Under the pieces are notes generated by a model, which searched no databases, had not been told where the DNA came from, and saw only the letters and a list, made by a program, of their open reading frames with translations. Made by a program: the position numbers and the translations under genes. A stretch of DNA of 64,000 nucleotides from Branchiostoma floridae (taxonomy: Eukaryota > Chordata > Leptocardii > Amphioxiformes > Branchiostomatidae), in contig NC_049986.1 of the NCBI RefSeq assembly GCF_000003815.2, positions 11,387,354 to 11,451,353 of the forward strand, given 5' to 3'. The first letter of the stretch is position 1, and each line of letters opens with the position of its first letter. This document shows positions 36,417 through 59,604 of the stretch, in pieces.

Positions 36417-38417
36417 TTAAAGGCAGTGTTCGTTCATGTTATTCATGATGGGCCTGCGCCAGGCGAAGACGAAGTAGCCGGCACCTGCCCCGAGCGCCAC
36501 GGACAGACACAGCCAGACGTTAAACGTCATGAAGACCAACATCAGCCCGTAGCTGACCAGGACCTGGACGATGTGCAGGAGAGACTGCAGCGCGTGCATG
36601 CGGTCAAACATCTGGTCCCTGTCAGATAGGCAAACATTGGATGACTTAACGGTTATGACAAGCTTTATTGACACGACAAAAAGTACAGTTACTTTTAACA
36701 CAGTTATACAAAATAAAACAAGTCTCTGAAGGAATTGCAAGAGAAGATCAAGTTTTTCTTGAAATAGTTGAACTGTAATTTCCAACACCAAAATTGGACT
36801 CACCCAAATTTTCGACTGCACAGCATCAGTCTTTGTCAAGGAATGGCACAAGCTGTCATTCCTTGACATACACTGATGCTGTGCCGTCGAAAATTTGGGT
36901 GAGTCCAATTTTGGTGTTTGAAATTACAGTTCAACTATTTCAAGAATGACTTGTACCAACACAGATGAACTTTCAAGTTAAGAAGATCAAGTTTTAAGCG
37001 TGATGTTCACCTCTTTCTTGGGGGTGGCTCCACCGGTATAATGTCGTCCTGTGTATATCTTGTGATCTTCTTGTCGGTGAGCAGCTGTATGCTTTGGGAT
37101 GCCACATTCTCACTGTCCCGTGCCCGGACCATCAACATTTCCCGCCAAACCTTCAGGCCCTCGTACAGCACGGCGATGGCGAACACTCCGATACAGGAGC
37201 CAATCAGAGCTGTGTGTTGACAATCATTTCCGTCATACCATGCATCGTACAAAAATCACAGAGAAAGCTGAAGGAGAAGCTCCACTCCAAAGGAAAACGA
37301 TGTTTCGAATTCCAGGTATAGAAATTGGTTTTAATTAGTGCCATTGGATTGAAGAAAGAATTGCTTTTTGCCATCGTGATCACTTATCATCATATCTCTG
37401 CAGCCAAGCGAAATATATCGCAAATGTTATTACATTTTTATGAAGTTGGAAGTAGATTATAGCCTTGATGTTAGAAGCACTCACCTGCTACTGATTCTGT
37501 TTTCCACTCGTAGAACAGCACGGTGATTCCCCTGTGGTCGACGAAGAAGTACATCTTGTGCCCCTGGAGCAAAAACGTACTGAGTCAAAACCTAACATGC
37601 GAGACAGTCCCAAGCAGCTCATAGACATACACGCTTACAAATCAAAGCAATCTGTTTCAATGAGAAAATCTTGGATGCGATGAATGGATTTGTTGTTCAT
37701 TTACTTTTTGATACAAACTATCAGTAGAAACAAGGAGGTTGAAGACACAGCATGGTAAAATGCTTATAGCTAGTAGTGATGCATGCATAGTATAGCATTT
37801 TCCTTTTGCAATGCATCGTTTCTCATATATGGCATATATGCATATGATAAATCATCAGTCATAAGAATGTTGATAATATACACTGTACAAAGACAACAAC
37901 AAATGGCATTTATCTTACGCCGCCATGGCTGCCAGCTGAGGGGGTCATGTCTGTACTGTTCTTCAGGGCGGTTGCCTATTTGATACAAATGGTAAGATAT
38001 CCTTATCAATTGCAATACACAAAGGCAATCAATAGCAACAACATAGCACAACACCATACGATAGATACATGTTACGGTAGCCTGAATAGACGTCTAATCG
38101 CTTCCATATGTACGTGACTTTACTCCCTAATTCTACTTTATATAGGGACCTAATTTTTTCTTGTTCTGAATAAACTGTACACTGAGTCTATTTTAGTCTA
38201 TCATCTTCGTTGAAGCACATGGCTTTAATGTTATGACTCATAACACTAAAGTCATGTGCTTCAACGAAGATGGTCATTGACGGTGAACGGTATTTAGTAT
38301 GTATTATTGTTGATTCATTGTTGGTTAGCTGGTACTTACGGTAGTTGCTGCACCATATGTAGTTTGGCAGAAGACGAGGACCACAACCAGCGGAATGAAA
38401 TGTTGTGCTGCCGCCAT
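36417..38417 (-). CDS. CTR copper transporter A, short ectodomain
   Basis: A copper(I) permease of the SLC31/CTR family, which works as a trimer. Five exons (38417-38340, 37975-37919, 37563-37485, 37209-37011, 36618-36417) give 204 residues. Exon 1 is a signal peptide (PLVVVLVFCQTTYG). Exon 2 encodes only 19 ectodomain residues with a single Met. Exon 3 is the juxtamembrane segment (HKMYFFVDHRGITVLFYEW). Exon 4 has membrane segment 1 (GVFAIAVLYEGLKVWRE) and the cytosolic loop. Exon 5 has segment 2 with the Met-x3-Met pore motif (LMLVFMTFN) and segment 3 with GAGAG. The end is Glu-His-Cys-Leu, so the last His of the usual His-Cys-His is lost. It lacks the metal-binding repeats of B, C and D and may be a CTR2-like or low-affinity form. 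It is the most 3' of four tandem copies. Confidence 0.93.
36756..36985. repeat. Long foldback element in intron 4 of copper transporter A
   Basis: Two arms of about 75-90 bases are nearly perfect reverse complements (36756-36840 and 36862-36946) around a roughly 20-base loop. Arm words include CAACACCAAAATTGGACTCA and TGAGTCCAATTTTGGTGTTT. The outer flank up to 36985 is shared, in opposite orientation, with 45791-45840 in a different intron of transporter C, so it is a dispersed MITE-like family. Confidence 0.85.
38202..38272. repeat. Perfect-arm hairpin in intron 1 of copper transporter A
   Basis: CATCTTCGTTGAAGCACATG is mirrored by CATGTGCTTCAACGAAGATG. The inner bases (CTTTAATGTTATGA / CTCATAACACTAAAG) continue the pairing almost to the centre. 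No coding sequence. Confidence 0.8.
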
Positions 38418-40294
38418 GCTTCTTGAATCCTGCTATAACAAGGAGCTTTTGGTTGTAGTAACAACAATGTTACTTTTTAGTGTTGCGAAACTTCGACAAT
38501 CCTTCTACAGCATGTTCGAAAACCTAGCTGTAAAATCTTGAAACCTGAAGCGTAGAGAGTAACCGAGTGACCTTCAAGTTACTTTTTGACATATATACAG
38601 AGGCCTATCTTTTCTAGATGTCCAATGTGTTACCTGTTCATATCATATGGCACTTAAAGCGACAATATATAAAAAAACGTACAAAGTAGTATTTCCTGCC
38701 ATTCTTTATAGAGTTAGTTCAATCAATAGTTAGTTCAATTCATAGTTACGGAGGGAAAATGCGACATCATTGCACCATCTACCATCTTTAAAAGCCGTGA
38801 TCTTCAAATTTCCGATGGTATCACGCCACAAATGCCCCTCCGATGGTAGATAGGGCCACGTATGATAACCGGACTGGGGTCCATGCAGTCAGGTAGGGCA
38901 GTGAACAGACAACTCATCAGACGTCTTACTGATAGTGTTCGCGATGTTACATTATTTCATAACACAACACTCAAGAACCTTCCACTCTTGTTTTGTAAAT
39001 TCTATACAATAGGCATATTTCCGCTTCTCACGGGCCTGTTTTGATCTACGTGGAACCAAAACTGCGTAGTTTTGCATAGAAGATGTCCTGGGCGCACTTT
39101 GCTACCAAAAACCGAGCAGAACAGTCTTCGTCGGTCAGTCTATGTCAGCTGTGATTCATGTCCATTTGTCATCGATTCATCCAAATGAAGAAAATCCTCT
39201 TGTTTTAAATTATATACACTTTGTCCAAACAACACAAAGCGTGTCCATTGAAAGGCGTATACGATAGATCTGAAGAGAAAAACAGTTAAGAACACCTACC
39301 TGACGATACTCCACAAACACTCGACCAGATAAACCTGTTCCACCACTTCATTGACGCAGTGCTACGTAAGATTGTCTGCAATTAAAGTCGTGCGCGTGCT
39401 GACGACCCCGATTGAGTCACAGGCTAATAGTTTAAAAGAGGCTTCCAGTAGAAGAAGACGTACTCAAAGCGAAGTGTCAGCCCAAAGCACTCGTAGATAT
39501 TACTGACGCTATGGGTATTACCTAGCGTTAGTTCTAACATTGCTGCGTATAGTCTTAACACTTAGCCCTTGTTCTAGGTTGAAGGGGAGAAAAATTCAAC
39601 AATGTATTTAATATCTCTGGATTACAAGTAGTCTCGCGCGTATACCTTACATGTTTTGATTATATACACGTAAATCGAATTGAATTGAAAGACACACGCT
39701 GATTTTACAAATTCGGCTATTGTCTTGTATCAAATACAAGTATATTGCATAAACGTTATTCATTGCAGACAACGTATACATGCCAGATAACAGATCGCCA
39801 ACTAAATTAATGTACATTTATTCACAGTTAAGAAATGCACTGACTCAAGACAAATAGCTTACTCAAATGAAGACTAGCTGACTGCTCATTACATGTTGTA
39901 TTGTATTGTAAGTATAGACAGTATATGAGACTTGATTATTCAACGCATTTATTTAGCCCTGAATAGTATTTTAGGACAGAAAACGTGATAGTTGGTCTCT
40001 ATTAGTGAAATAATGTGATAGCTCCCCTCTATCACATTATTTTGCTAGTAAGAGATAAAATTGTATCTACTGGTTAAATAATGTGATATGATTGTATCAA
40101 TCATTATCACATGTTAAAGTAGTTAACACTTTTTTCGACAGAAACACTTTTTGGAACTAAGATAATGTGATAAATATACCGAGCTAGCATATGCACGTTC
40201 TATTAAAAGTTGCACCGAGATTACTAGTGGAGTAGCTTGATTAGGATGAAATATACGTCTTTCCATTTCGTACTTATCACATGAAGCAGTTTCT
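38418..40294. other. Intergenic region between copper transporters A and B
   Basis: Upstream region of A and downstream region of B. No exon recognised. Its distal part (39986-40282) holds a cluster of TAATGTGATA words described separately. I see no clear TATA box or metal-response element core that I would defend. Confidence 0.4.
39986..40282. repeat. Cluster of TAATGTGATA motifs with a small palindrome
   Basis: The word AATGTGATA, or its complement TATCACATT, recurs about six times in 300 bases. It includes a 13-base inverted pair AATAATGTGATAG / CTATCACATTATT at 40009-40041. It lies about 1.6 kb upstream of copper transporter A and just after the end of B. It could be a decayed foldback element or a regulatory cluster. 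Confidence 0.55.
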
Positions 40295-42323
40295 TTAATG
40301 GCAGTGTTCGTTCCTGTCCACGGTGATGGGCCTGCGCCAGCCGAAGGCGAAGTAGCCGGCACCTGCCCCGAACGCCACGGACAGACACAGCCAGACGTTA
40401 AACGTCATGAAGACCAACATCAGCCCGTAGCTGACCAGGACCTGGACGATGTGCAGGAGAGACTGCAGCGCGTGCATGCAGTTACAGATCTGGTCCCTGT
40501 ACAAAAAGATGGTTGGAAAAACATGTTTGTAGTACTGGATAAATCTCAAAGATCAGGTACAATGTGTTACATATCGTATGATTTCATTATAGCCCAGTTT
40601 CGATTCCTATAGGTGAAAAAGTAAAGCTTTCTGTCCCTTCCCCGTCAAGTAGGCAAAACTAAAGGAAGGACAAAAGCCACACGAAATAAAACAATAGTCA
40701 CCGAGAGGTACTATAAGAGAAAACTATGTTTCAATAGTGTTGTTCACCTCGTCTTTGTTGGAGGTATCTCCCCGGGCATGAAGTCGACACCCAGCGTACT
40801 TGTACTCTTCTCATTAGTGAGCTGCTTCAGGTTGTGGGAGGCCGCCATCTTACTGTCCTGTGCCCGGACGATCAACATTTCCCGCCAAACCTTCAGGCCC
40901 TCGTACAGGACAGCGATGGCGAACACTCCGATACAGGAGCCAATCAGAGCTGTGTGTAGAGTGTGCTTGTTGCCATGATTTGCAATCATGCAATATATCA
41001 CACCAAAGGCAAAAAGAATGAAAGAGCGGCTTTACTCTAAACAAAATGATGTTCTCAACTCAACTGCAACTAGGGTTGCAGTGGAACAACAGCATGTAGA
41101 ATCTTTTATCAGACTGAAGGAAGAATCCTCATCAGAGCGCTTTTGCCTAGAATGTATATTTTTCTTTAGTCTTCACTTGTTCTTCATAACGTTTCTAAGT
41201 GTCCTGACGTTGTCATTATAAAGTTGGAAGTAGATTATGGCCTTAATGTACGTTAGAAGCACTCACCTGCCACTGAGTCTATTTTCCACTCGTAAAACAG
41301 CACGATGATTCCACTGTGGCCGAAGTAAAAGTACAAGTTGTGTCCCTAAAGTAGTGAAAGAATCACGTCACTAAATCTTAACAAAAAAATGGCACACACG
41401 TTCGACATGAAAAAAAAAAAAATCAAATACCTTGGAGACATGTACACTTACAGAGCAAACAATCAGCTTGCCAGAAAAGCTAGCCTGGATACCAGACCCA
41501 CAATCCAGGCTTAGGAAACAGACTCGCATCCGGGCTAAAGGAAATGGGAAATCCGATAGATAGATTTTCACATTTGATTGCCGTTACAGACTATAAGCAA
41601 TACATGCTCCTTTTCACATGTGATGTTTGTGAACATAAAGTATTGAATATTGACAATACACAAAGGACATACCCTGAAGTAAAAGCCAGCAATAATTTAA
41701 CGTTCATCTTACCAAGCTGCCATGGCCCGAATGGCCTCCACCACCAGAGTGGTCCATCCCAGAATGGTCCTTGCCAGAATGGTCCTTGCCAGAATGGTTC
41801 ATACCGGAATGGTTCATGCCGGAGTGGTTCATTCCGGAGTGGTTCATGCCGGAGTGGTTCATTCCGGAGTGGTTCATTCCGGAGTGGTTCATGCCGGAAT
41901 GGTTCATTCCCGGCATAACCGTGTGGTTCATCATGCCGGAATGGCCCATCCCCATATTGTGTTTCAGGGTGGTTGCCTGTTTGATGCAAAACGTAAGGTA
42001 ACACTATATAAAAGACTTGTGTAAGCCCTTCTTATTCTATACACCCATTTTGTGCTTTGTGAAATAGTCGTTGCCATACAATGTACCATGTACAATTGTC
42101 GTGCAATAAAGTTCTTCTATCATTATCAATAAGCAGTAATTATTGGTGAACAAACTGTGCAGAGACTATTTCTTCCGCTGTCTCCGCATGACTGTGTGCA
42201 CAGTAAACGACATTGAGTATACATTACAGCTGGTAAGCTGGCACTTACGGTTGTTGGAGTCCCATAGGTAGCTTGGCAGATAACTAGGATGGCAACGAGC
42301 TGAAGAAAATGTGCCACTGTCAT
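40295..42323 (-). CDS. CTR copper transporter B, Met-Asn-His-Ser-Gly array
   Basis: SLC31/CTR1-type copper(I) importer of the plasma membrane. Five exons (42323-42249, 41976-41713, 41345-41267, 40949-40748, 40496-40295) give 273 residues. A signal peptide (LVAILVICQATYG) is followed by an 88-residue ectodomain exon. That exon starts with MGMGHSGMM, then has eight exact MNHSG units, two KDHSG and one MDHSG. Then come the juxtamembrane exon (HNLYFYFGHSGIIVLFYEW), membrane segment 1, a loop, segment 2 with LMLVFM (Met-x3-Met), segment 3 with GAGAG, and a terminal His-Cys-His. All functional CTR motifs are present. Met and His clusters in this position are known to capture copper. Intron positions match A, C and D. 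Confidence 0.95.
41743..41907 (-). repeat. 15-base coding minisatellite (MNHSG units) in transporter B
   Basis: Eleven pentapeptide units in tandem: MNHSG x8, KDHSG x2, MDHSG x1. At DNA level the 15-base unit ATGAACCAYTCCGGM repeats with few silent changes, which implies recent expansion by unequal exchange or replication slippage within the coding exon. Confidence 0.95.
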
Positions 42324-44857
42324 GTTTCTTGAATCCTGTAACCGGTATACCGTAGTACTTCGGTGTACTGTTATGTACGTTCTTCTGCCGGTGCCTCTGC
42401 GGTCTGCCCTCAAACCTTGAAACCTGAATTCGTAAAAAGTTAACTAAGTTGAGTAAAGCATTTGCTATACGTATTTGACGCACAGATGCCTATTCAAAAC
42501 TGTGCGACTGTTATAGTTGTGTGTACATGTCACATTTTACTTTATTCTGTGTGTATGTTGCACGGATTCCTGTCCAACAACTCATGATGTACAGGAGATT
42601 TACGAATCAAGTATGATTTCAGCTCGCGATTCTATTATACAGTTGTGTAGTTGCCTTGCTAATTTACACCAATGTTTGTTTCGGAATTTGCTTCTTTAAA
42701 GAGACAGCTTACGACTCTAGTATACAGTGGTGTCGTGGCCTCTATTTACCAGCGGAAGTGAAGCGAAAAGACAAGGGTTTTCAGTCTTCAAGTCCGTGAC
42801 GGTGTTGTCACGCCACTAGCGCCACATGGTACGTAAATGAATCACAGTGGGTTAAGTCTTGAAGTGATCGGGGACGCCGGACGGATATGAATCAACATAA
42901 TGATTCATGTGGTAGCTTGATCAGAGCTCTTGCTGTGCTGTTAGATTAATGAGATCGCCTTGTATGATAATATTTACCTTTCTGACCACGCTGTTTGGAC
43001 ATTCGTGTTGTCAAAACTGCCTACTTTTGCCCAGAGGGCGTCCATGGTGGAGACAAGCACAACAAAGATCGGAATTTAGAGAACGACATACGAACGTAAG
43101 AAATTATGACCTTGAGCGAATGAACATTATCGAAACGGAACGCAGTGCCTGTATTACAAAAAAAATTCTCTTATAAACTCTGGGGCGCAAACCTTTGGTG
43201 AAACACTTTTAATTAAGTTAAGTCACTTGTAGAATTGGCAACACCAGTTGGAAAAGGTAAGGGGTAACCTATTCGAGACCCCCCGCACACAGCACACAAA
43301 ATCACTGTTCAGTCTTATCTAACTTCGTTATAAACCTGTCCTTTACATGTCATAAAACTTCATGCACGCTACGCAAGAAAAAATATCATCTGAACTGGTA
43401 GCCAGGTGGAAAAAACAGTTGCAGAGGAAGGTGGAAATCAGCGCGGAAAGTAAACATTGGGCACTATTCGATTAGTTTAAGTCTGTGTCTGCCACGATTA
43501 TCCATTTGTGCAAGTGATAACAATCCTCATTTCATAAGTACAAGCATGATGAAGCCAACATTAGCGGCTTCATTGAAAGACTAAACGATAGAAAAGCAGT
43601 GAATTCGAAACCTACCTGCACTTAATACGCCATCCGCACAACACTGGACACGACTAACCAGTTCAACTACTTCCGTCACGCACGGACGAAAAGTTACAGC
43701 TCGCTGGCTCTTACACTGTGCATGTAATTATAGTCGTGTTGGCATGTAGTCAAAGTCGGGTTGGTGACCACATTCAAGTGAATAGAGTCTTGGACCTAAC
43801 TTTTTTGGTAGAAGAAGGTGTGATACAGTTTCTATGTAAATATCTATCATTTTCATGAGTAGGTTTTTTTATTGGTCTGTTTTAACAGTATAATTAGTTA
43901 TGGTGTTACCCATGTTGTAGACTGTATGGTAAGAAGAATATCAAATGAAACTCAGTTGGATTCAAAGCAGTCTTGCTTAACTACAATTTATTGAACCATA
44001 AGAAGCACACCGTGTCACGCGCATTTGCTTAATTAATAAAGTGTGATACAACGTGACGTGAACGACAACAATGATCTACATGTAGTGACATCAAATTTAA
44101 AGGTAGGTTGTGATATGTTATATTCAAGCCTGTTTAGGTTATCCTCATCATTGATAGTGTGTATGGCAGTGAGTTTGTACTTACAGCGCTAAATGAACTG
44201 GTGATGGTGTTTTTTAAATCAAGTTGTTGGCTCAAATGTAGCCCAAATTTAGTTGTATTCAGTGTTTGCATAACATTACAAAGAACAATTGCATAGCAAT
44301 TTACAGGCGAATCTAATTCTTGTGTATATTGTGAGATCGATTTGAAATAATGACAAGTTGATATAGATTAATTCATTACAATGATATATTATCTCATCTG
44401 GCTTCTTTTAATCAAAACTGACCAACAGTCCATTGCGACATTATATTTTCACCACAGTCCACAACATAATGCACCCAAATTTGAAAACAACGATTGGTAA
44501 TTCCATGGGCATGTCTTATTGATCTCATTGGGATCACAAATAGAGTACTTTGAGTTATAAGAAACCATTGTCTTTTCATCCAGGATATATGTCACATTAC
44601 CTGGATATGGAACAATGTAATCGATTTTTCTCACTAAAAGAAAGCTCATGTTAAATTTGTATCCTTAAAACTGAATGGACTTTATTGCTTGCACGACATT
44701 TGTACACGGTACAATGTGTACTTATGTCCATGTGTTAATGTGTGGGTCACAACACCAGCAATAGCTGCCTGTGACCTGTGTGTATTGTATTGACTATTGT
44801 TTACAATCTGAATAAAGTATGGCACAGACTGTAATTCTCTGTTATAGGAAGTTATGT
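42324..44857. other. Intergenic region between copper transporters B and C
   Basis: No gene is assigned. A minus-strand open frame (44449-44649, 66 codons) has several Cys and two possible N-glycosylation sites but matches nothing I know. Next to it, 44683-44720 (GACTTTATTGCTTGCACGAC) resembles the 3' end of a minus-oriented LINE. The remainder is AT-rich and unremarkable. Confidence 0.4.
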
Positions 44858-47120
44858 TTAATGGCAGTGTTCGTTCCTATCCACGGTTATGGGCCTGCGC
44901 CAGCCGAAGGCGAAGTAGCCGGCACCTGCCCCGAACGCCACGGACAGACACAGCCAGACGTTAAACGTCATGAAGACCAACATCAGCCCGTAGCTGACCA
45001 GGACCTGGACGATGTGCAGGAGAGACTGCAGCGCGTGCATGCAGTTACAGATCTGGTCCCTGGACAAAAAGATGATTGGAGAAAACATGTTTCCAAGACT
45101 GGACTTGATTAACACAAGGATCAGATGCAGTGTATTACATATCGTATGATATTTCACTCTAGGCCAGTTCCGATCCTGCTATGTGAAAAAATAAACCTTT
45201 TTTAAAACCCTTGTCCTATTGAGCCCATAAATCTACGGGTTGCACATATATAATGCCTGGATGTGGGTTCAGTATATGCTTTGTGGGTTTGGGGCATCCC
45301 TCACATGCGGCATACCACAGCAAACCGCATCGATTGGGGAAGTAAATCTGCAGCAGAAGCACAGTACAGGTCAAGTTTTACTGATCTCATTAATCAACCA
45401 GCTTAGAGAGGTTACTGAACTATGCAAAATATTCTCAGCAGGACGATAGTTATTCCCTTCTTTGACACCACTTTCTCAGATTTCACCCTACGTTATGATG
45501 CTCACCTTGTCCTAGGTGTTGTCGCCCGTGGGGCAATGTCCACGTCCAGAGTGCTGGTACTTTTGCCGTTCGCAATGTTGGTCATACTGTATGAGTTGGA
45601 GGCCGCCTTCTTACTGTCCTGTGCCCGGACGATCAACATTTCCCGCCAAACCTTCAGGCCTTCGTACAGCATAGCGATGGCGAACACTCCGATACAGGAG
45701 CCAATAAGAGCTGTGTATGCAAAATAGGCAGAGTTAGGTCTGTTATCAGATACCAAAGGCACTTGAATGCGTACTGTCTATATTGTGTATTAACTTGAAA
45801 GTTCATCTGTGTTGGCAGAAGTCATTCTTGAAATAGTTTAACAATCCACTGCTGCCGCGACGTCACGTTATGCAGACTTATGATCCACTGCTCACTGAGT
45901 CACGTGTTCTATCTGCAAAACGTGACGTCACGGCAGCAGTGAATTGAAATGTGGATCAGACTACAGTACTGTCGTAATAAACGAATTGTGTCAGAAGTTT
46001 TACCTGGTACTGTATTGATCGTCCACTCCAGGAACAAAACAACAACCTCGTGGTGACCGAAGTAGAAATACGAGCTATGTCCCTGTTTAACGGCAGGAAA
46101 TAGACAGCTTGATTAGTTATCTTAGATATCGTACATTCTGTGCCTTTATACTGGCTGTTTGAGATACTGGGTAGTTCGAATGGATAGTGTTCATTTTAGT
46201 CCATATCTATGGCAAAGTATTTTTCTTTTAATGTTCAAAAACACAATTTACGATTCTTTCATAGATGACGTTGTTTTCCTACCGAGCCATGGTCCATTCC
46301 GGAGTGGTCCATGGAGTGCGTGCCGGTGTGATGCATGCCGGGGTGGTGCGTGCCCGCGTGGTCTCCACCGGAATGGTGATGTGTTCCGGTGTGGTCCATT
46401 CCGTGGTGGTGAGTTCCGGTGTGGTCCATTCCGGTATGGTGCATTCCGGGGTGGTGAGTTCCGTGGTGGTGTGTTCCGGTGTGGTCCATTCCGGTGTGGT
46501 CCATTCCGGGATGGGTTCCGTGGTCCATGGTATGCTGCATGGTGTGTCCCATGTGCATAGTCACTGTGGTAGTCTCTACATTGCCAGTTGCGGGGCTGGG
46601 AGAAGGAGCCTGTTGATCATAGAACAAGACGAAATGTGATTAAAAAAACTGTCAACAACAGGATATTGATTTTGTCTACCATATTCTTGAACGCAACATT
46701 CAACGGCTTAACATCAAATCACCCTCCAAATAGTGGTTTCTTCATATTTTTAAGCAGTCGCACATTTTAATCACATTCTAGTTCGTCGTACGAAAGTAAA
46801 ATGTAGGATCCAGTCTGAACACAGCCTGTCACAGGGAAATTTTTAGCCAAAGAGCTCATTTTGTAGAAAGCTTGCTGACGTAAAACAGAGATAGACGTGC
46901 GTAGAATAAAGCGATTTCCTGTGCCCTACTGGGGGCGTAATTCGTCTACTCGTTCGCCTACTCACTTGCTATTATATTGGGCACGATAAAATCTTAAGCT
47001 TCTAGTTTAGACCATAGAAGGGTTTGACGTCAGTAGTTTACGTACCTCTGTAGTAGCCCCGTGGGCGATATTGCTGATGACCAGCGTCAGAAGTAGCGCT
47101 AGAAAATGTTGCGTCGTCAT
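44858..47120 (-). CDS. CTR copper transporter C, His-rich pentapeptide array
   Basis: Five exons (47120-47046, 46609-46283, 46082-46004, 45710-45506, 45059-44858) give 295 residues. The signal peptide is FLALLLTLVISNIAHG. The 109-residue ectodomain exon opens with a Ser/Pro/Thr linker and MHMGHTMQHTMDH, then pentapeptides MDHTG, THHHG, THHPG and MHHTG. I count about 30 His and 12 Met. The juxtamembrane exon (HSSYFYFGHHEVVVLFLEW), membrane segment 1 (GVFAIAMLYEGLKVWRE), segment 2 (LMLVFM), segment 3 (GAGAG) and terminal His-Cys-His are all present. The last exon is almost identical to that of B. The His dominance suggests stronger Cu(II) or Zn capture than the Met-rich sisters, which is inference. 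Confidence 0.95.
45791..45941. repeat. Foldback element in intron 3 of copper transporter C
   Basis: CACTGCTGCCGCGACGTCAC is mirrored by GTGACGTCACGGCAGCAGTG. The left flank (TAACTTGAAAGTTCATCTGT onward) matches, in reverse, the flank of the element at 36947-36985. The arms contain CRE-like TGACGTCA palindromes, though these are probably a property of the element. Confidence 0.75.
46320..46560 (-). repeat. Coding pentapeptide minisatellite of transporter C
   Basis: Tandem 15-base units encode x-(D/H)-H-(T/H/P)-G pentapeptides inside exon 2. The units are more varied than in B, with His replacing Met in many, but the pentapeptide period is the same. Confidence 0.9.
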
Positions 47121-48802
47121 TGTTGATCTCTTTGAAGTTAGTGACCAGTGATCTGGAGATAACAAAATATCAAAAGAAATGATTATTAATGGCATAGTGA
47201 CTTGAGTCATTTATCCATTTGCGGGTAACGATATTTAGCGTTATGGAGTAAAAACTTATGGAGAACAAACATCGATGGACATTACATTTTAAAGGATAAT
47301 TTCCTTAGAGGGCTTTTTTCCGACTACTGCAACCATTGTTTTTTTAAAGATGTGCGTAGGCACCTCAAAGGACTCAAGGCTTTATAGCTGTGCCTCAAAT
47401 TATGATCGCGATTTCTCAGCTCATTCAAGGCCTGTGGACAGCTTCAGCTAGTGGTTTTTCGCCCGCTGGATTCACTTCGAAGTTATGATCGGCAAAAGTC
47501 GGAATGCTGTTAGTGACCATTAATAAGAAACGCTCTTGAGGTGGCGAGCACTTTCTGAAATACAATATGCCATGAATTTGTTGTCTCTATTAGTATTACA
47601 CCACTGTCCAGTCGGTTGATGCTCCCAAAGACAATCAGTCTTACATCATTTCACTTCAGCCTTAGCATGTTGGACCAGCTTAAAGCTTTGCTATTTGTTT
47701 TATGCCGACGATACGACAATAACCTACCTAGTCCCTCGACCTCCAGGGCGTTGGGGGGACAAGGTAGCCATGGAGAGTTGTTTACAATCTACCACAATAA
47801 ACCTGATCGTAAATTGTTAAAACATTACGTTGACCTGCTGCTCAGACCGCGGTTACGGCTCACGTGCTCAGGCGTGAACAAACAGTGACAGGCCTACGTG
47901 CAGAAATAAGATCTCTTCATATGGCCTCGGCTTTTCAGGTTTCAACGCTTCTTTTAGCCACGAACGAACTTTAGTTTCTGGTACGTCTTTGTCATGTGTA
48001 CAAAACATATGAAAGACCCATTAAACGTCCAGTTCAGTGTGCCCTTTGTGTTCACTGGTTACGGGGATACATATTGCCTTTGGCGTTTGAAACACAATAC
48101 GGTAACGTTACATGTACAAACGAAAATACTTAATCAGTAAGGGTTCCCCGAGTCACTAGTAAAGGTGGTTCAATTCACACACTAACCACCTTGGTTCACA
48201 CTTTCCTGCACAACTTTACCTGTAGCTTGGCAACAGGAAAGTAACTGCCAAATGGGCTATTTGCCCGGAGCTATCGCCCTGTTATATTTCATCAAAGTCG
48301 ATCTAGCAAGCTTTTGTGGTTTAACTTGGAATCATAAAGCATTCTTGGTATGTCTTTTTGTTGCCGCTATTTTGTGCAAGCTCCGAACCGATTATTTACG
48401 GTGAAACACCTGTTCTTTGACAAAAGCCGGGCTTGTGCAGAAGTGGTCTTCGAGTATGCAACCCTACCGGTTCTCATGGAAGGCCAGTGTGCACGACCTG
48501 CACTTTCAAAGTTTCCCACAAAACCATTGTTTGGAAATGGTAGGGAGGTAGGAAACAGACTTATCAATTTTTGTCACATTCCATTGTTGATGGTCGACCG
48601 GCAAGCGCTAAAGGTCGAGCGGCTGTGACGTTACAGGTGCAGGTTCTCCCATGTGTATAATTATGTACATGTAACTTGACAACCTAACCTGTCGAATCAC
48701 CTTGCACCAAACCGGTAGTATTGATAAAACCTCTCCGGTCTTATGTAGCCATTGTTAGTATCATAGATCTTTAATTTGTATCTTGCCTCGAGTCTAAACA
48801 GT

Positions 48803-48885: not shown

Positions 48886-50186
48886 GCCGGCTAGGGAACA
48901 ACGCGCGGCCCACAGTTTTTATCATTCTACGCGTGTTTGATTTGAACAGAGGGTGTGATGCAAATAACCGACTCTAAATACAAACATGAGACGCTACTGA
49001 TGATCGGGCATTTGTGAGAAGTTTCCAGACTGCCTAACGTTACATGACCCTTCATCGGTATTTAAAACATTGAATAGAGAGCTTGGAATTCTGAAGAACA
49101 CACAGTCACGTTTCTACAAGTATCCGAGCTTACCATATCAACTTCTTACCTTTGCTTTGTTGTGAACAAGTCGGTGTGCTGTGAAACTCCAGACGTCTCG
49201 AGTCAGATAACTGTGTGTGCCTAGGGAGAACTAACTAGCTCGTGACGTCACACGGAGGAAGTGTGTGCTTTCCTGCACAGCCAGGGGTCATGTAGAAACC
49301 AAACACCTCATCACCATATTCAAGTCACGAGAGGCTGGGTGGAGTGACTGTGACGTCACGTGCTTGGTGGTACAATGTACCTGTCGGTGCCCGTTGATAC
49401 GAACAGGTGATCATGATATCAGGTGATACTCAGGCGTCCATAGCATGGTGAGCAAACCATGTCCATAGTGTCCATAGCAAATATGAGACTGCAGTGGCTA
49501 ACATCATAGCATGAAAAACGCGCTTGATAGCCTCTCTCAGTTTTTGCTCATAATAATATGGCGCACACAAGTCTTGACAAGATACCAAATGAGCACTCAA
49601 GGTAGCACCTGAGGTATATTTTATGACGTAAGTCTTTCGACCTGCAGGACGTTAAGTCCTAGCTTCACATCAACACAAAATACCCATACTTTACCTCCAT
49701 TTTAATTCTTCCTAAGCTGACTAATAAGTAATCAGGAATGAAAAATTTAACGAACACTATGAGAAAAGGTCAGAAAATAGAATACAGGCAAAATACATTC
49801 TTGGACGAGGAATTTGATGGGTCTGAATATTATCTAGTTGATTTGATAACATTATATACATGCACTTGCATGCAAGCTTTATTCATTTGTATCCGCTTGT
49901 TTGTATAGATGGACTTTAGATACGAAAATTGCTGTACCTTTCTTGTTTCGAATTCAATAAAAATTGTCAATTAAAAGGTCAACATCCGGCAGGTCAGAGG
50001 AATCCACCTGTTCGGTCCCACGTAATGGGGATAGAGGTCATCGGCCTCGTTTTTGGACATAGATATCAGGTCAACGTTCGTATGGGCACTTCGTGCTATA
50101 AATAAACAACTCCTTTCAGTTGAAGGTTGATAGATACATCATATACCGTGTGTTCTGACCCTAAAATGCGTACATCTGTTTTCTTT

Positions 50187-51705
50187 GTTACCTTCGCCAA
50201 GAAGGTTATATTTTGGGTAGCGTGTGTATGTATGTATGTATGTCTGTAGAAGACCACCATAACTCAAGAACGCCTGAATGGATTGTATTAATATACGGTA
50301 TGTGAGTAGGTCTTGTTGAGACCTAAAAACGATTAGATTCTGGGCCTCCTAGCGGCCTCTTACGGTACTGCAGCGGAACTTCCTGGTTTGATATCTCGAG
50401 TTCTGGACATGCTGCGGCAATGATTTTTAAGTGGTAGATAGCTCTTGATGTCAAGGGTAAGTGGTATAGGTTTGGGCCCCCTAGCGGCTTGTTTTGGAAC
50501 TGCAGGGCAGGTTTAGTGTCAGACTTTGAAAGGGAATAACTCAAGAAGGAGTTGACGGATTGTCATGATTTTTGGTATGTAGATAGCTTAAGTGATGCTT
50601 CATATAATGACATAATAATTATGCAAATCGGTATCTAATTTGCATAATTAATTAGGAAATTTTATAAACACGCTCAGTTCCTTTATGGGACCATTGCAAC
50701 ATGTGACATTTGTAACTGAGAAGGAGAAGAATATTTATTATGCAAAATGAAGACCTAATTTGCATAATTAATGAGAAAATGCTATAATTTCATTGTGGTA
50801 AATGACAGTAACTTCTTACTTGTAGCATTTGGAAGTTATGTACAGGTGAACATCGTTGAACATTGATTATGCAAATGAGATCCTCATTTGCATAAATTAT
50901 CAGAAAATGCGATTAAAGCCTTCTTTCTTAACATAGATTGTATACAAGAATGCCTGGATGGATTGTATTGATATTCGGTATGAGGGTAGGTCTAGATGAG
51001 ACCTGGAAACGATTAGATTTTGGGCCCCCTAGCAGCCTGTAACGGGACTGCAGCAGAACTTCCTGGTTTGATATCTCAAGTTCTGAGCATGCTGCGGCTA
51101 TGGTTATTAAGTGGTAGACAGCTCTTGATGCCGAGAGTAAATGGTGTAAGTTTGGGCCCCTTAGCGACTTGTTTTGGAACTGCAGGACAGGTTTAATGTC
51201 AGACTTTAAAAGGGAATAACTCAAGAAAGGATTGACGGATTGACATGATTTTTGGTATGTAGATGTCTGACGTTATGCTACATATAATGACATAATAATT
51301 ATGCAAATTTGTATCTAATTTGCATAATTAATTAGGAAATTTGGTAAATGCGCTCAGTTCCATTATGGGACCATTTCAACACGTAACATTTGTAACTGAT
51401 AAGGACAGGAATATTGATTGATGTTTATTATGCAAAATAAAGACCTGATTTGCATAATTAATGAGAAAATGCTATTATTTCATTGTGGTAAATGACATTT
51501 GCATCAGTTAGCAGAAAATGCGATAAAAGCCTTCTTTCTTAACATAGATTGTGTACGTCTGCTGTCTGGTGGAGGAGATGATCAGCTGATGTAATTTATG
51601 CAAATGAGAACCTTATTTGCATAATCAATGACAAACACAATTAATACAGCAGTTGTAAAGAAAGGTAGGCTTATTTGGCGAAGGTATGGGGTCGTGGAAC
51701 TCTAG
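50187..51705. repeat. Dispersed element with an internal tandem duplication
   Basis: It begins GTTACCTTCGCCAAGAAGG and ends GGCGAAGGTATGGGGTCGTG followed by GAACTCTAG, so the first and last dozen bases are inverted. Inside, a block of about 680 bases is present twice (compare GCCTGAATGGATTGTATTAA near 50271 with GCCTGGATGGATTGTATTGA near 50951). Words such as TTTGCATAATTAAT recur. A relative lies at 60595-61374. No transposase is seen. Confidence 0.75.
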
Positions 51706-53280
51706 TTTTCACTATTTCAATTGCCGAATGTACGTATTTTTCAACTGTTTACAAGTGTTTCATTTTACTGTTATGAGATATCTGTAAGCTTTTGGGTATG
51801 GACTGCAATAAATTAATTACTGTATTCACTCCACTGTCTTTTCTTTTGAATTTCACTAGCTGACAAATGTAAAAAAAATCCAAGGAAACACATCAACACG
51901 GTCCAGAATTGCGGAGTTTTAATCCATTTCTTCCAGAAAATATTGACAAAATCTGGTCATTTCTAAATCTCTTTAAACAAATTTGTCCCATTTTGCACTG
52001 GAAACTAAACTGTGCAAGAAGTAATATTTACTGCAAAAGGTAATTTTCAAAAGACAAGACAAATATCACTGCCATCCATAAATTGTTCATATTCTTATAA
52101 TCAAACCCTGGTCTCATAGGAGTCTATTCACAATTCACAAAACTATATTCTACTTGAAATATGGCACTATTGCTACATCCTTATAATAACTGTAGACTTG
52201 TCTACATTATATTTCATAATCTCTTTACAAATCTGTGCTTTTTGTCTTTTACAGATTTCAAGATCCAGCACAATCAACATAACTGCGAAGCGTTCCATTT
52301 GCCATTGGTTGGCAAATATGGTCATTTTATGAGCAGACGACATAAACAATAGTTGACAAGAATCTGTTACCTGCTGAAATCACCAAAATAGTTGCCACAA
52401 TTTATCTGTGACACTGAGACAGAAATACTATACCTGTCAAAGCTCTTAAGACGTTAAGTTGCTCTTTTCAAAATTAACAGCAAATTCTAAACATAAAATC
52501 AATACCATATTCTTTATGACAATCTCTCAACTGTAGTTGATCTAATTGCTTTCAAATAAAAGAAAGAAACACATCAGATTTCTGCAAAAACTTAATTTTA
52601 CAAGCTGTCTCAATATCTATACTTTTATGGATTTTACGTACATCTATATCTGTGTTGGTATAAACACCACTTTAAATCAAAATATATCAGCTTTTGCAGG
52701 CACATGGTGGTAGATTGTACAGTTGGATCAAACGACTTGTCTTCAACTTACATATTCTTTCAAAACAGCGACAAAGCAGCAACAAAGTCTTATTCCTGGA
52801 GTCTCTATGCACATCTTGTGTCTCCTTTAGAATCCATAAAAGGCTTACCGGTGGTATGTCATGAAGAAGGGACAAGGTGTAATATCATGCAATATTCTAA
52901 TAGCTGTATAAGTAAGTACATTAAACATTTTGTATGAGCAGTACTAAATGTAATTGGGTGTACCACAAGATAAAAATCATATGCTGAACTTTTTGTGGAT
53001 GCAACAGTTAAGGACAGAACAGTTTTTATACCATAATCTCAGTAAACCCATGTTCACCTCCTGATGTGATAGTACTTGTATCACCTGATTCAATGTTGTC
53101 CACATTATCAGACACACCATTTTTTTGTCCTCAACATTTGTCCATCACTAGCAACAAGATTCAATCATTAAACAAATTAGGAAAATGCCCTGTAACAGAA
53201 TAGGTGGGGACAGATTTTTTTTACTGTTCTTAAAAGGCATATCAATGATTGATGACACAATATAGACCTCTGTCCCATCA

Positions 53281-56200
53281 TTAATGACAATGCTCGTTGA
53301 TGTCTATGACTATGGCCCGTTTCCAGCCCGAAGAGAAAGTACCCGATTGCTGCCCCTATGGCCCACGGCTATGCAGAGCCAGACGTTGTACGTCATGACA
53401 CCCAGCATGAGGAAGTAGCTCACTACAATCTGCAGGACGTGTAGGAGGGTCTGGATCAGTGGGGCAGAGCTCAGGATACGCGACCTACAGGAACATGAAC
53501 AGAGTCCGTTAACATTCAACCATAAAAATACAACAGATCTCATCAGCAAAACTTAAGGGACTAGAAAATTGGTGGCTGTGGAATGATGTTTACAAGCCTT
53601 TCCACTTAGAGGCTCTGAAGGATTGAACGCTTCTGCAACAAATTTCATGCATAAATAAAGTTTATTGAAAATTCTTGCCCATGGGCTAATTGCAGGTAAC
53701 ATGAGAGATTCAAGCAGTGTAACAACAATATCACACAGGTGTCTACTCTTAAAGACCAACTTTTTTACATCTTGTGTGTTTTGTTGTCTTTTACATCATG
53801 CTTCTATGTCTCCCATATGGTCTAGTGGTTAGGATTTGGCGCTCTCACCGCCAAGGCCCGGGTTCGATTCCCGGTGTGGGAACCAGTGAAACAACCAGAG
53901 GGGCGAGTAAGAACAGAAAGAAACAACACCCCGACTCCCGGGATTCGAACCCGCGCCAAACCCGGGCAGCCGGATCACAAATCGAACGTGCAAACCGTTC
54001 GGCCAAAGGGCTTAAGCCGTTAGGCGTCTTCGGTTTAGCAGTCCTTGAACACCACTGTTACACATCATATTCAAAGTATGAAGTCAAGAGTTACAAAAAT
54101 CCAATCATTCTGGTCGCTGGCAAGTGGAAAGAAAGCCTCAAGAGTCAAGAGTCAAGGCACATTGAATAAAATCAACATCAACAAGTTAATGAGCCTACAA
54201 CAATTCAAAGTTCCCTAACTTGAATTGCGATGTAGGAGGATAAACACAAGGCCAAAGCCTGGCTCTCTCTCGGAGACCCATTCTCTGTTAACTAACATTT
54301 ATTACACCATGCTATGTGATTTCCTATGTGTACATATTGTACATGATGTATATATATATATACGATGAACATTTGTAAATTTGTAACCATTTTGCTATGT
54401 TAATGATAGTGCTTTTATATTGACAATGTTTACTGCAATGATTTTATATGTAACATGTATTGTTCTTTCCCAGGGCTAGCCCTTGGCAATAGCCTATGGC
54501 TAGTTGGGCAGCCCTGGCTGTCTGTAAACAGCCGAACGAATAAATAAAAAATAAAAAAGATACGTAGCAATTTGCAAAAGAGATAACTGATTTTATTTTG
54601 TGAGTACAACATGTACAGTTACTGCACTGTATCCACACCTACCCTGTAGTTTTCTGAGTCTCCACGACAGGTAGGTTTTCAGGACCAGGCACCGCGACAG
54701 AATGATAGCTCACTGTCACCATGGACTTCCTCAGAAGATGTTCCCTGAACACCTTCAGACCTTCATACAGGGCTGCAATAATGCAGATCCCAACCATCGA
54801 GCCTACAAGGCCTAACAGGGAAATAAAAAATCATAATAATCAACACTACACAATATAAACATTTAAGACATCTAAGACCTATGCTTTGATGTTTTTGAAG
54901 AATTTTAAGACATCATTGTGCATACTGCATTTAAAAAAAAACACACAATTTAAGACAAAACAAACTAAATCCAAAATGTTAATAACTTGATCAAATCATC
55001 AAGCAGAATGCAGAAAAGAGACTTATAGTTATAGATATTGAGTCAATCATCTTTTGGGGTCTTTGATACAAAATCAGTCAATGTGAGTGCAAGGTATGAG
55101 CACATACTTCCAATATCATTGATGACCCAGCCGTCAAACAGGACTACAACATCTGTGTAACCAAAGTAGAAGGACATCTGCATCATCTGCAAGAGGAAGA
55201 TAGGATGTTGTACAGACATTAGGACAAAAACATGTCAAACTTACACATGAGATAGGATGTTGTACAGACATTAGGACAAAAACATGTCAAACTTACACAT
55301 GATACTATCATGGTTGAAGAAGTATAAAAAAACTTGGTACATGGTTATTTCCACTTGAATGAAGTAAAATGTTTGCAATTTATCGTTAATTTATCGATAC
55401 CAAAAATCTATCTAAATTGTACTGGCCCAATAGGGCAAGTGCAGGACCACATGCACCTGCCACATTGCACTTTCACTTTCCCCGGGCATAGATTTGTACA
55501 ACCCTGATACCATTCTTATTACCATATATTCAAATCAGATCTGAGGTGGAATTTGCATCTATACAAGACAGTGTTACTTGTCAATGAATATGACCTTGAG
55601 TATACAATGCCATGATTACAAGAACGTACATGTAGTTAATGAATGGAAAGATATTGTTCACCAAAGTGTTAGTGTCTACTGTCAAGATGTATACCATGCA
55701 GTTATGAAGACACACATACCATGCCAAGATGATCACCATGGCTTCCTGACTCTGCCCCCATCATGCTACCATGGTCCATGTTACTGTGGTCCATGTTACT
55801 GTGGTCCATGTTACTGTGGTCAATGTTACTGTGGTCCACAGCACTATGATTCATGTTGCTATGGTCCATGCTGTTATGGTCCATGTTGCTGTGGTCCATG
55901 GTACTATCCATGGTACCATGGTCCATGTTACTGTGGTCCATGGTACCATGGTCCATGTTACTGTGGTCCATGGTACCATGGTCCATGTTACTGTGGTCCA
56001 TGGTGCCATGGTCCATGTTACTGTGGTCCATACTGCCATGGTCCATCCCAGGACCCATTGTGTGCATGGGTGACATCGTCTACAAAAAAGCCAGATAAGT
56101 GTTATTAGTACAACATATACTAGTAGTAGTAGTAGGCCTTTGAAGAAACAACTTCTTGGAACTGGTGAAATATTCAATAGACAGTCAGTGCACAGTATCT

Positions 56201-59200
56201 AAGAAGCATTCAGTGGCAGACATACAAGCTTCCAATTTAATTTCTCTGGTTTTACCAATAAAGAAAACAGTGAGCCATCAGCTAATCAAGAAAGTAACTG
56301 AACATCCTGGGAAATGGCATTACCACAGCGTTCAGTCACTTCAATGCAACTACGGTTACCGTAGCTCATGATATTTTGTCAGAGATTTGCACGACATCTG
56401 TAAATCTACATGTAACGATAAGTACTTTTTGGACATGAAATTGACTCCTATTCTTCAAATTCCATATCATCTTCCCTAGCCTGTACTTCTTGGAAATCAA
56501 GGTACTACATTTTATGTACAGGAGAAAAATCATTTCAAACAGTATAATAAAGTCCTTATGTAAAGGCTACAAAACAAGGGGGATCAGTTTTAAGTAGGAT
56601 TGATTCCTTACCCAGTCTAACCTCCTGGTTACAGCCTAACCCTGTAACCAATACAGATTTGGTGCTCCTTCAACTGGGAAAAAGTTAAGATATCTTCGCA
56701 ATGCCTCAAAACACACTTAGTGGCCATGCCAACCACTGCTTACACAAGACTAAACCCATGTGGTATTAGATGGAGCTTTGAATTCCTTACACAATCCTGT
56801 ATGTTGTGTCTACAGGACTTTAGTAAATGTCATATTATAAGTGAGGCAAATTTATGGTGTTTTAAGTCTTCAATCATCTGCGGTTTCTGTTGAAAATCAA
56901 TTTAATAGCAATGTCTAGGTATGGAACTACATGTAGTACATAAACCACAGTACCAGTAACTGCATTAGTATTACTTTAACAGGTTAGAATGACTTACATT
57001 TACATTTAAAGGCCATTAAGCAGCTTGTTGGGGTCTATTTCTGAGGAGGCAGGTATCTCTGATATATACTTGTACAACATAGCCTCTACCAGGCTCCAAA
57101 GGTCACTGGAAAAATAGTAGAAATTGGTCAAATAAGACAAAAACACGCCAGTGGAGTCAGATGGATAGTACAGTTTGCGACCTAAGGCAAAGAACTCCTC
57201 AGCCGTCTAACTCCTATGGCGTGTTTTCTGTCTTATTTGGCCAATTGCTACTATTTTTCCAGCAACCTGTGGAACGTAGTAGAGGCTAGTACAACAGACA
57301 TACATGTATTCAAGTTGTTTGGTAATTGGGACCTCGTTACTGGTATGAAAGCCTTCCCCGTTCATCATGAATTTACACCCTGCAGAGTGTGATTGTGTAC
57401 TTATTGTAAGGAGATTTGTAAGGGGACAACAAATGCTGATGGTAGGCTGGTACAAGAGTAGCACACATACTGGTTAATCATTACTTGAAATAATACTTTA
57501 ATCAGTTGCATACACAGTTGAGGAAAATATATCCTCTTCTCATTTGCCACTAACTTTTCACGCTTTTTCTTGTGACAAAGGGCAGTAAGGGGGGATACCA
57601 GTTTGCTAGACCTGATTTGGATGCGTATATCACGGTATAACATCCAAGAACCGAGTCTAAAAAAGCCGAATGAAGGGCAAATATATCTTCTATCCTGATA
57701 TAATATGAGGATGAAGTAATCTGACAAAAAAAGGCAAAAAAAGAAGAAAGAAATTTTGACTCAAACTACATTAGCCTAAATTAATAGTATACACAATACA
57801 TGTCTTTTTCCGAAAATGTCTGTGCAGCTTTTAGGTTAACTCACTAGTATGAATCATGCTAGTAATGAAATTTCAAAAAAAATTATTTAACCATGTGGCT
57901 GGTATCAAATGGAATCATTATCATGTAACCCTATAGATATATAATACTCATTTGGCAAGTATACTTCCAAATGAAGAATCAGTGCTCAAGATAATGAAGC
58001 TTAGGATCTGTTTGGCCTTGGTTTGGCTTGTTTCTCATGTGACTAAGATTTTTGCTTTGACAATGAGACACATTCAACTGGCTTGAAAACATGCCGTTCC
58101 TACATTTTCCTAATCAATGTCAACAAAACGCTCTGAAGAACGAAGTCCTGTGTGTTGAACACCAATGTGTACGTGCATCTAGTCAATCATCAGCTTATGT
58201 AAATGTACATTGCAAAGGTCAGAGCCTTGAATTAACAATCCTGCTGTGTAAGCATATGTACTGCTGAGCTGCAAAAAAGTACAGAATGAATACTTTTGTG
58301 TCTACTTCGAAGGGAAGACTTTATCTGAGGCCAAGTCTGTGTCTGTGTAAATGGAGAAAGCTATCAAAACCAATAATCAATGGCCAAAGTCAATTAGAAT
58401 AAGATATGACAAGCTTGCTAGACCTGAAGGTCACATTCAAACTCAAGAAGATCATGGCAGTCATGGGGAAAGAATTTTGGCCTTAAAGGAAGTGGCAAAT
58501 GTTTTAATTTGGTCTACTACATTTTGTATCCACATTGAGCAAACAATGCTGAATGATGGATGGTTAAACCAGGAAGAGTCAGAGTGTTGCTGCTATTCAC
58601 CTTGTAGTGGAACATAGGTTAGTAAGTTTCCTTATTGTTACATGACCAGTAGCAGGGTATCAGATGATCTATATATTACAGGGAAGGGTTTCTAGCCCTA
58701 CCCCTTTACGTTTAACATGCATGAGGTGCCTCCTCGAACCTCCACGTGCCCTTCCCAGGATTTTTATTGGGATTTCCCGGTTACTTAACAGTAACAATTA
58801 TAACAGGAGCTCAGTTGCAAGGCTGCTACCAGTTGAGCTACAGGACATCTACATCTCTGAGTTTTGAACGATATTAAACAAGACAAATCTAGGGCCTCCC
58901 TCGGGAACTTGGTCACTGTAATAGTACAATGTAATATAAATGACAATGTACAACAAAATACTAGACAAGTATGATGTACGTGAAGTTATTGTCCATTTAT
59001 AATATAATCAAATATTTTGGCCTGGAACTAAACAAAATCATTATCACTCAGTTCTAACACTTATCAATACAATAATTGTTTCTGAAAATATAATTTTCAC
59101 AGCTTGCATTTCTGACTTGAGGTTACTACTATGCCAATTTATGGGTCATTATATAGAATTATGGCCATCATAAATTGATAATTTTCTGAGATTGAATGTT

Positions 59201-59604
59201 ATTACAGTAATTACATTCAATCTCAGAAAATTATCTACATAACAACAAGTTAATGACCCATAATAATGATTCATTAATTAGATGATTTATTTATTTATTT
59301 ATTGATCTTTAGGGTTATTAACGTAGTAACTGATTTCCAAGGGAGCCCTATTGGCGTCTATTCTTGAAACGAATCCCGACAACATATTGTAGGGGGAAAT
59401 GGCGTGCGTATAAAAGGTGTCAGGTCTCACTTCTTAAGTATTCTTAAGTACACACAGTTGACTGCTTCCAGACTGTTGACTTACCGCGTCTAAGGAATGG
59501 TTCATCGTGCCGTGCTGGTGCCGCATACGGTGGTCCTGAGCCACTGCAGCGGCCACCACACAGCACACAAACACGAGCCACAGGCGGCCACCAGGAGCAG
59601 ACAT
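53281..59604 (-). CDS. SLC31A1: CTR copper transporter D, likely SLC31A1 orthologue
   Basis: Five exons (59604-59485, 56079-55720, 55186-55108, 54811-54643, 53484-53281) give about 309 residues. The signal peptide [13 protein letters not shown] is followed by [14 protein letters not shown]. Exon 2 encodes 120 residues dominated by MDHSN and MDHGT pentapeptides. Exon 3 is [20 protein letters not shown]. Exon 4 has segment 1 ([16 protein letters not shown]) and a loop ([30 protein letters not shown]) close to human CTR1 as I recall it, unlike A-C. Exon 5 has segment 2 with LMLGVM (Met-x3-Met). Here the frame is broken twice by single extra bases, one in the run at 53361-53364 and one at about 53336. 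With both ignored the exon reads [13 protein letters not shown] and ends INEHCH, like other CTR1s. Either assembly errors or a very recent loss. It is head-to-head with an FKBP15-like gene. Confidence 0.9.
53811..53882 (+). tRNA. tRNA-Glu (CTC), complete cloverleaf
   Basis: Acceptor stem TCCCATA pairs with TGTGGGA (one G-U). The D arm is GGTCTAGTGGTTAGGATT. The anticodon stem TGGCG / CGCCA closes loop CTCTCAC, with anticodon CTC. The T arm is CCGGG TTCGATT CCCGG. Discriminator A is followed by a genomic CCA, unusual for a eukaryotic gene, and no T-run terminator follows closely. It may therefore be a retroposed or SINE-head copy rather than a standard gene. It lies in intron 4 of transporter D, antisense to it. 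Confidence 0.8.
53931..54010 (-). pseudogene. Opposed tRNA-like sequence
   Basis: On the minus strand, TGGCCGAACGG resembles an A box and GGGTTCGAATCCCGGGAG a B box with a good T stem. The anticodon arm pairs poorly and no acceptor stem closes. It points towards the tRNA-Glu copy 50 bases away. The pair may be parts of a composite SINE. Confidence 0.6.
55740..56050 (-). repeat. Coding minisatellite ([10 protein letters not shown]) of transporter D
   Basis: Most of exon 2 is a 15-base repeat with an alternating 30-base higher order: MDHSN then MDHGT, four or more times. It then decays into [15 protein letters not shown] and IDHSN. The opposite strand is rich in GTCCATGGTACCATGGTCC-type words, which produces spurious long open frames there. 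Confidence 0.92.
57072..57295. repeat. Palindromic MITE in intron 1 of copper transporter D
   Basis: The ends GTACAACATAGCCTCTACCA and TAGTAGAGGCTAGTACAAC are inverted. Inside, GTCAAATAAGACAAAAACAC is mirrored by GTGTTTTCTGTCTTATTTGG. The central 60 bases do not pair. The element is related to copies at 21711-21781 and 48803-48885. Confidence 0.8.
59141..59261. repeat. Hairpin element near the transporter D first exon
   Basis: ATGGGTCATTA is mirrored by TAATGACCCAT at the ends, and ATAATTTTCTGAGATTGAAT by ATTCAATCTCAGAAAATTAT inside, with a 15-base loop TTATTACAGTAATTA. AT-rich, non-coding, in intron 1. Confidence 0.8.

Follow-up and report, generated by a model that had tools for sequence, protein, structure and literature searches.

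What keeps the channel nearly the same in a row of copper transporter genes whose outward-facing tails have become so different? The question is raised by a 64,000-nucleotide stretch of the Branchiostoma floridae genome (contig NC_049986.1, positions 11,387,354 to 11,451,353; here called the window), in which four genes with Ctr domains (PF04145), designated A to D, stand in tandem on the minus strand between positions 36417 and 59604 of the window. The favoured answer, given a probability of about 0.72, is that the genes are CTR1-type (SLC31A1-like) copper importers and that gene conversion among A, B and C keeps one pore while the tails diverge. By sequence A, B and C are open, and the fourth gene, D, is more diverged and frame-broken.

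The four genes and their exon plan

The genes were rebuilt exon by exon.

Gene A, CTR1-type: 36417..38417, minus strand; exons 38417-38340, 37975-37919, 37563-37485, 37209-37011, 36618-36417; ends in HCL
Gene B, CTR1-type: 40295..42323, minus strand; exons 42323-42249, 41976-41713, 41345-41267, 40949-40748, 40496-40295; ends in HCH
Gene C, CTR1-type: 44858..47120, minus strand; exons 47120-47046, 46609-46283, 46082-46004, 45710-45506, 45059-44858; ends in HCH
Gene D, CTR1-type: 53281..59604, minus strand; exons 59604-59485, 56079-55720, 55186-55108, 54811-54643, 53484-53281; last exon over three frames

An earlier note on this DNA had claimed four same-strand genes with an identical five-exon plan, a 79-base juxtamembrane exon and the Met-x3-Met and GxxxG motifs in all four. 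The plan is borne out, with GT-AG junctions throughout, intron phases of 0/0/1/2 and an exon 3 of 79 nucleotides in each gene. The Met-x3-Met of the second transmembrane segment (TM2) is likewise present in all four, as LMLVFM in A-C and LMLGVM in D. The GxxxG of TM3 is in frame in A, B and C but is found in D solely in a shifted frame, and the same applies to the C-terminal HCH of D, which is in frame in B and C and replaced by HCL in A. The best solved relative of B is salmon Ctr1 (6m97, E 1.9e-32), aligned through the Met-x3-Met, GxxxG and HCH motifs.

The frame from ATG to stop is uninterrupted in A, B and C, in which the introns are 200-446 nucleotides long; the first intron of D has 3405 nucleotides. 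All four genes have a short hydrophobic start in exon 1 that by eye resembles a signal peptide. This start is followed by the ectodomain in exon 2, a juxtamembrane strip in exon 3 and the three-helix channel, which exons 4 and 5 encode together. Pfam Ctr was matched above the gathering cut-off by the final exon of each gene (E 2e-14 to 2e-17) and by exon 4 of A, and exon 4 of D scored 22.6 bits, under the cut-off of 25.3 bits; exon 4 of B and C was outside the input of this comparison.

The pore exon in A, B and C and in a second cluster

Two tracts of high identity are found in A, B and C, the main one covering the exon that encodes TM2 and TM3.

Homogenised TM2-TM3 pore exon of A: 36417..36618, minus strand; 93% identical to B and 92% to C
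Homogenised TM2-TM3 pore exon of B: 40295..40630, minus strand; exon 40496-40295 and about 134 nucleotides of intron 4 common to C
Homogenised TM2-TM3 pore exon of C: 44858..45200, minus strand; exon 45059-44858 and the end of intron 4 common to B
Second tract, TM1, the first 120 nucleotides of exon 4: B 40830..40949, A 37209-37090, C 45710-45591, minus strand; 87-92% identical among the three

The 202 nucleotides of exon 5 differ at 2 positions between B and C, 15 between A and B and 17 between A and C, and a run of 107 nucleotides is identical across the three genes. The silent divergence (dS) of this exon is 0.019 for A-B, 0.068 for A-C and 0.047 for B-C, while elsewhere in the same genes it is 0.33-0.63 in exon 4 and ranges from 0.29 to saturation in exon 3. 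Fisher tests of silent divergence gave p values of 4.9e-4, 1e-6 and 7.8e-9 for A-B, A-C and B-C. When the silent changes were shuffled along exons 3-5, the longest identical run was reached in 187, 1 and 0 of 20000 trials for the same pairs. The first 41 codons of exon 4, which encode TM1, also contain few silent changes (3, 6 and 3). Exon 5 of A differs from those of B and C at 12 amino-acid-changing codons and 0-1 silent ones, mostly at the two ends of the exon. Homogenisation extends to the synonymous sites, which makes gene conversion the better explanation for the fixed channel of A-C.

The closest relative of B changes along the gene. In exon 3 B is 83.5% identical to A and 63.3% to C, and in the first 60 nucleotides of intron 3 the values are 82% and 46%. 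The order is reversed in the last 135 nucleotides of intron 4 (78-81% to C, 43-46% to A) and in exon 5 (99% to C, 93% to A); random pairs of 135 nucleotides (n=30) had a mean identity of 43% and a maximum of 57%. Beyond the gene, B and C have dissimilar 3' flanks (about 33-40%). Such a switch, from A as the partner of B in exon 3 and early intron 3 to C in late intron 4 and exon 5, is a mark of short-tract gene conversion. Silent sites homogenised within a bounded tract, unlike flanks and exons that conflict over relatives are thus found together in these genes. Non-allelic conversion between A, B and C would have replaced the sequence of the TM2-TM3 exon, and to a smaller degree that of the TM1 half of exon 4, and the ectodomain, the juxtamembrane strip and the cytosolic loop would drift while the pore is kept.

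A similar pattern is found at a second place in the genome. All 13 Ctr matches listed in the genome-wide search (513,431,437 bases in 431 contigs; the counts are lower bounds) fall either in the A-D cluster, on contig C8, or in a cluster of three genes on contig C2. A DNA search of the genome for the pore exon listed A, B and C only, and no match to it was found among phage records.

Tandem Ctr cluster E1-E3, CTR2-like: about C2:18702378-18709802; three genes with a homogenised TM2-TM3 exon

The TM2-TM3 exon of this cluster has a dS of 0.20 for E1-E2, 0.26 for E1-E3 and 0.04 for E2-E3, whereas the TM1 exon is saturated for the first of these pairs and stands at 1.41 and 1.19 for the other two, and the flanks of the pore exon are 41-55% alike. 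All six within-cluster pairs of A-C and E1-E3 gave p<0.001. Between the clusters the dS of the pore exon is 0.9-1.5 (B or D compared with E2), so this exon is not kept from silent change by another constraint. The two patterns are most simply read as conversion among the genes of each cluster.

The two clusters appear to belong to different branches of the family. A tree of eight rows (A-D, E1-E3 and salmon CTR1, a named CTR2 sequence not being among them) separated A-D and salmon CTR1 from E1-E3 with support of 100/100 for both channel parts together and 100/99 for the TM1 part alone, and on this grouping the C8 cluster is read as CTR1-type and the C2 cluster as CTR2-like. The likely start of E1-E3 is MDMPMSF, their ends are without HCH and no pentapeptide array was found in 19.8 kb around them. 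An in-frame stop is located just upstream of the ATG in E2 and E3, separated from it by 4 and 8 open codons; in E1 the frame stays open over another 41 codons upstream, and the start of this gene is a presumed one.

Ectodomain tails, gene D and neighbouring features

Exon 2, which encodes the tail, is different in each gene, as the earlier note had stated.

Ectodomain exon of A, phase 0-0: 37919..37975, minus strand; 57 nucleotides, 19 amino acids, array absent
Ectodomain exon of B, phase 0-0: 41713..41976, minus strand; eight exact MNHSG, then KDHSG KDHSG MDHSG
Ectodomain exon of C, phase 0-0: 46283..46609, minus strand; His-rich pentapeptides, 109 amino acids
Ectodomain exon of D, phase 0-0: 55720..56079, minus strand; [10 protein letters not shown] array, 120 amino acids

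The exon is rich in Met and His in B, C and D and not in A, which has one Met, one His and one N-glycosylation sequon. The 88 amino acids of B include 14 Met, 16 His and nine sequons, eight of these inside the MNHSG units, so that the array can just as well be called a row of N-H-S glycosylation sequons. C has 30 His, 12 Met and no sequon, and D has 23 Met, 21 His and one sequon. Since exon 2 lies between phase-0 introns in all four genes and the unit in B, C and D is 15 nucleotides long, gain or loss of units, or skipping of the exon, keeps the frame; the tail could lengthen, shrink or be left out in this way. The differences between units, counted as silent versus amino-acid-changing, are 15/5 among the 11 units of B, 5/31 in the ten-unit block of C, and 7/9 and 9/20 in blocks 1 and 2 of D; these counts treat the units as independent although they are related by duplication, and the silent excess in B is only suggestive. 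Tuning of metal binding by this minisatellite, as the earlier note proposed, may occur.

From known CTR1 biology, the tail would gather copper and feed a trimeric, Met-lined pore, and the four genes would differ, as copper importers, in capture rate or surface life. D would have a Met-rich tail, C a His-rich one and B a Met/His tail that is probably heavily N-glycosylated, while A would be nearly tailless and CTR2-like. Having neither an array nor HCH, A is more readily taken for a reduced member of CTR2-like kind than for a variant of copper capture. The excerpted account of salmon CTR1 in PMC6437178 describes the N-terminal domain as dispensable for transport, which is slowed by its loss; on this result the tails would most likely set capture rate, selectivity or surface stability, with conversion keeping the proven pore. 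The diversified copper-uptake module with a fixed channel that had been proposed is therefore retained in part. The tandem CTR1-type set, the divergent Met/His ectodomains and the near-identical channel of A-C agree with it, but the channel of D is diverged and A has no array.

One pore common to all four genes had also been proposed, and this holds for A, B and C (exon 5 82-100% identical) but not for D, which could be compared only up to a frame break and is 48-50% identical to the others over the 40 codons before it. The pore dS of D is 1.3 against A, B and C, and one of its three silent-divergence tests was below 0.05 (p 0.032). Exon 5 of D reads ...NVWLCIAVG in one frame, continues as [12 protein letters not shown] in the next frame and as [14 protein letters not shown] in the third, and then reaches a stop (the fragment is also given as [18 protein letters not shown]). 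Read as it stands, the gene has its first in-frame stop at 53310, inside TM3, and the shifted-frame stop is at 53281. The shifted pieces resemble CTR1 as far as the HCH end (compare salmon, [26 protein letters not shown]); accordingly, either the frame was lost very recently or the sequence contains an error. The last exon of D was found as a single copy in the assembly, where a second copy with which to check the frame break was not found. By its sequence D has a diverged channel of its own and, in this assembly, what looks like a broken frame.

A cut after AVA in exon 1 of D (59485-59604) would leave a QDH N-terminus, by its sequence a possible copper site of the amino-terminal copper- and nickel-binding (ATCUN) type. 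The MDH N-terminus of human CTR1, to which this QDH is likened, is an ATCUN-type site.

The window also contains the following features.

15785-19328, minus strand: long interspersed nuclear element (LINE)-type element with endonuclease and reverse transcriptase domains, the latter over two frames
20409-20915: 215-bp tandem repeat, 2.3 copies, 96% matches, near the LINE-type element
24303-29165, plus strand: open frames with TPR and CHAT domains, probably exons of one gene, which we take to be a TTC28-like gene
50265-51244, between C and D: 300-nucleotide direct repeat pair, 87% identical

After masking of A-D no further Ctr-like pieces were found in the window at E<=1. A Ctr-like match at about 19.8 kb (E 0.021, 27-amino-acid query) was discarded because of its position immediately upstream of the LINE-type reverse transcriptase frame and because it was gone at E<=1 with the four genes masked. 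Metal-response elements were not in clear excess in the window, with 22 found and 15.7 expected (8 of 100 shuffles had as many) and 34 cores against 41.6.

Alternatives and comparison with known systems

Plain recent tandem duplication followed by purifying selection, with the pore fixed by protein constraint alone, is an improbable account of these genes. A-C are clearly paralogues and salmon Ctr1 retains much of the TM sequence, but the silent sites are near-identical in exon 5 and partly saturated in exons 3 and 4, those of exon 5 are free to change, as the pore dS between D and A-C indicates, and the exons conflict over the closest relative of B. The alternation in B, with exons 1-3 A-like and the stretch from late intron 4 to the end of exon 5 C-like, would also follow if unequal crossing over had joined an A-like gene to a C-like one and so produced B as a single recombinant, without continuing conversion. 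Little likelihood is given to this origin, since exon 5 of A is nearly silent-identical to those of B and C despite an unlike intron 4, and the unlike 3' flanks of B and C require short, two-sided tracts. Conserved exons of 200 nucleotides can be mis-assembled, and the last exon of D hints at errors in this assembly; nevertheless it is very improbable that several genes owe their pore exon to the collapsed or misplaced reads of a single one, because the copies of exon 5 do differ, with the changes of A mostly at its two ends, the flanking introns are mostly unlike (the B-C match in intron 4 is at about 79%) and the C2 cluster has the same pattern.

Two further alternatives concern function. 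Decay of A and D, leaving B and C as the only working genes, is doubtful but deserves serious consideration: the last exon of D is in three frames, A has no array and ends in HCL, and its exon 5 differs from the others mostly at amino-acid-changing codons. A is open from end to end with sound junctions, however, and the pieces of D, still CTR1-like, suggest that the frame was broken very recently or that the sequence is in error. It is somewhat unlikely that the tail of B is chiefly a glycan brush, in which nine N-x-S/T sequons guard against proteolysis or serve for anchoring, and not a device for copper capture. The concentration of exon 2 sequons in B agrees with such a role, as does the O-glycosylation at T27 of human CTR1, which guards against ectodomain cleavage in the excerpt of PMC12731240; but Met and His are kept in B too, its sequons are predicted sites only, and the same excerpt gives N15 glycosylation of human CTR1 as dispensable for function.

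Gene conversion among A, B and C in a set of CTR1-type importers is preferred to these alternatives, and several observations weigh against it. A-B is the weakest pair in the shuffles, at 187 of 20000. The tract is not restricted to the pore, since the TM1 half of exon 4 is alike too, so that identity-dependent conversion of any well-conserved stretch suffices and no special role of the pore is needed. D belongs to the same cluster and is not homogenised, and a tree of the TM2-TM3 part places it, weakly (73/76), with E1-E3 and not with A-C and salmon CTR1. The silent-divergence comparison in this genome covered the two Ctr clusters only. The G+C content at third codon positions of exon 5 is 0.84-0.87 in A-C, raised as conversion predicts, but it is also high in D (0.78) and significant in only one of the three C2 genes, and is weak support for conversion. 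Human CTR1 has MMMxM before TM1, among its first Cu(I) sites in the excerpted text of PMC12731240; this Met cluster is missing in exon 3 of B and C, which have no Met there (GHNL and GHSS), while A has one (GHKM) and D has MMQM, and high-affinity uptake by B and C is therefore not assured.

A wider proposal is speculative and, on balance, unlikely. Conversion would act as channel-locking for copper importers in two unlinked clusters, the TM2-TM3 exon being recopied and the outer parts left free, so that Met, His or combined metal-ligand and glycan-brush heads are carried on one pore; subunits might then mix in heterotrimers with mixed tails.

The genes form a natural CTR1-type set with nearly the same pore and differing ectodomains, which offers a test of Met, His and glycosylated tails in copper capture. 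Homogenisation limited to exons is present in one genome at two unlinked clusters of copper transporters, and trees of such genes drawn from the pore exon will be misleading. The literature searched contained no description of the A-D cluster, nor of conversion in CTR genes. The number of genes is ordinary, since seven Ctr members are tabulated for Saccoglossus kowalevskii in the part of PMC12274423 consulted.

The genes share with CTR1/SLC31A1 (salmon 6m97 and human) three TM segments, Met-x3-Met, GxxxG (in frame in A, B and C), the HCH end in B and C and, in B, C and D, a Met/His ectodomain. They differ in a separate, by eye signal-peptide-like exon 1, a pentapeptide array in a 0-0 exon, the lack of a Met cluster before TM1 in B and C, the HCL end of A and the presence of four linked copies, three with a common homogenised pore exon. 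Human CTR2/SLC31A2 is described, in the text available from PMC12731240, as having neither ectodomain nor HCH, and A resembles it in being without a long ectodomain and HCH end; A groups with the CTR1-type genes, however, and the CTR2-like genes of this genome form the separate cluster on C2. The nearest parallels to the homogenisation are found in other families. In the fugu protocadherin clusters, as the excerpt of PMC1852091 presents them, tandem paralogues have a 3' region homogenised by regional conversion and a diverging 5' outer region, with silent sites and third-position G+C as the evidence, but those are large clusters of adhesion proteins, whereas here the protein is a small ion channel and the main converted unit is its pore exon. 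In RHCE and RHD, the subject of the Innan model as far as the extract of PMC3966226 goes, some exons are homogenised by conversion and an exon with an outward-facing surface stays divergent, in two genes with polymorphism data and not, as here, in one genome assembly. Region-limited conversion that spares an outer domain is thus already known from protocadherins and RH genes, and would here extend to copper transporters.

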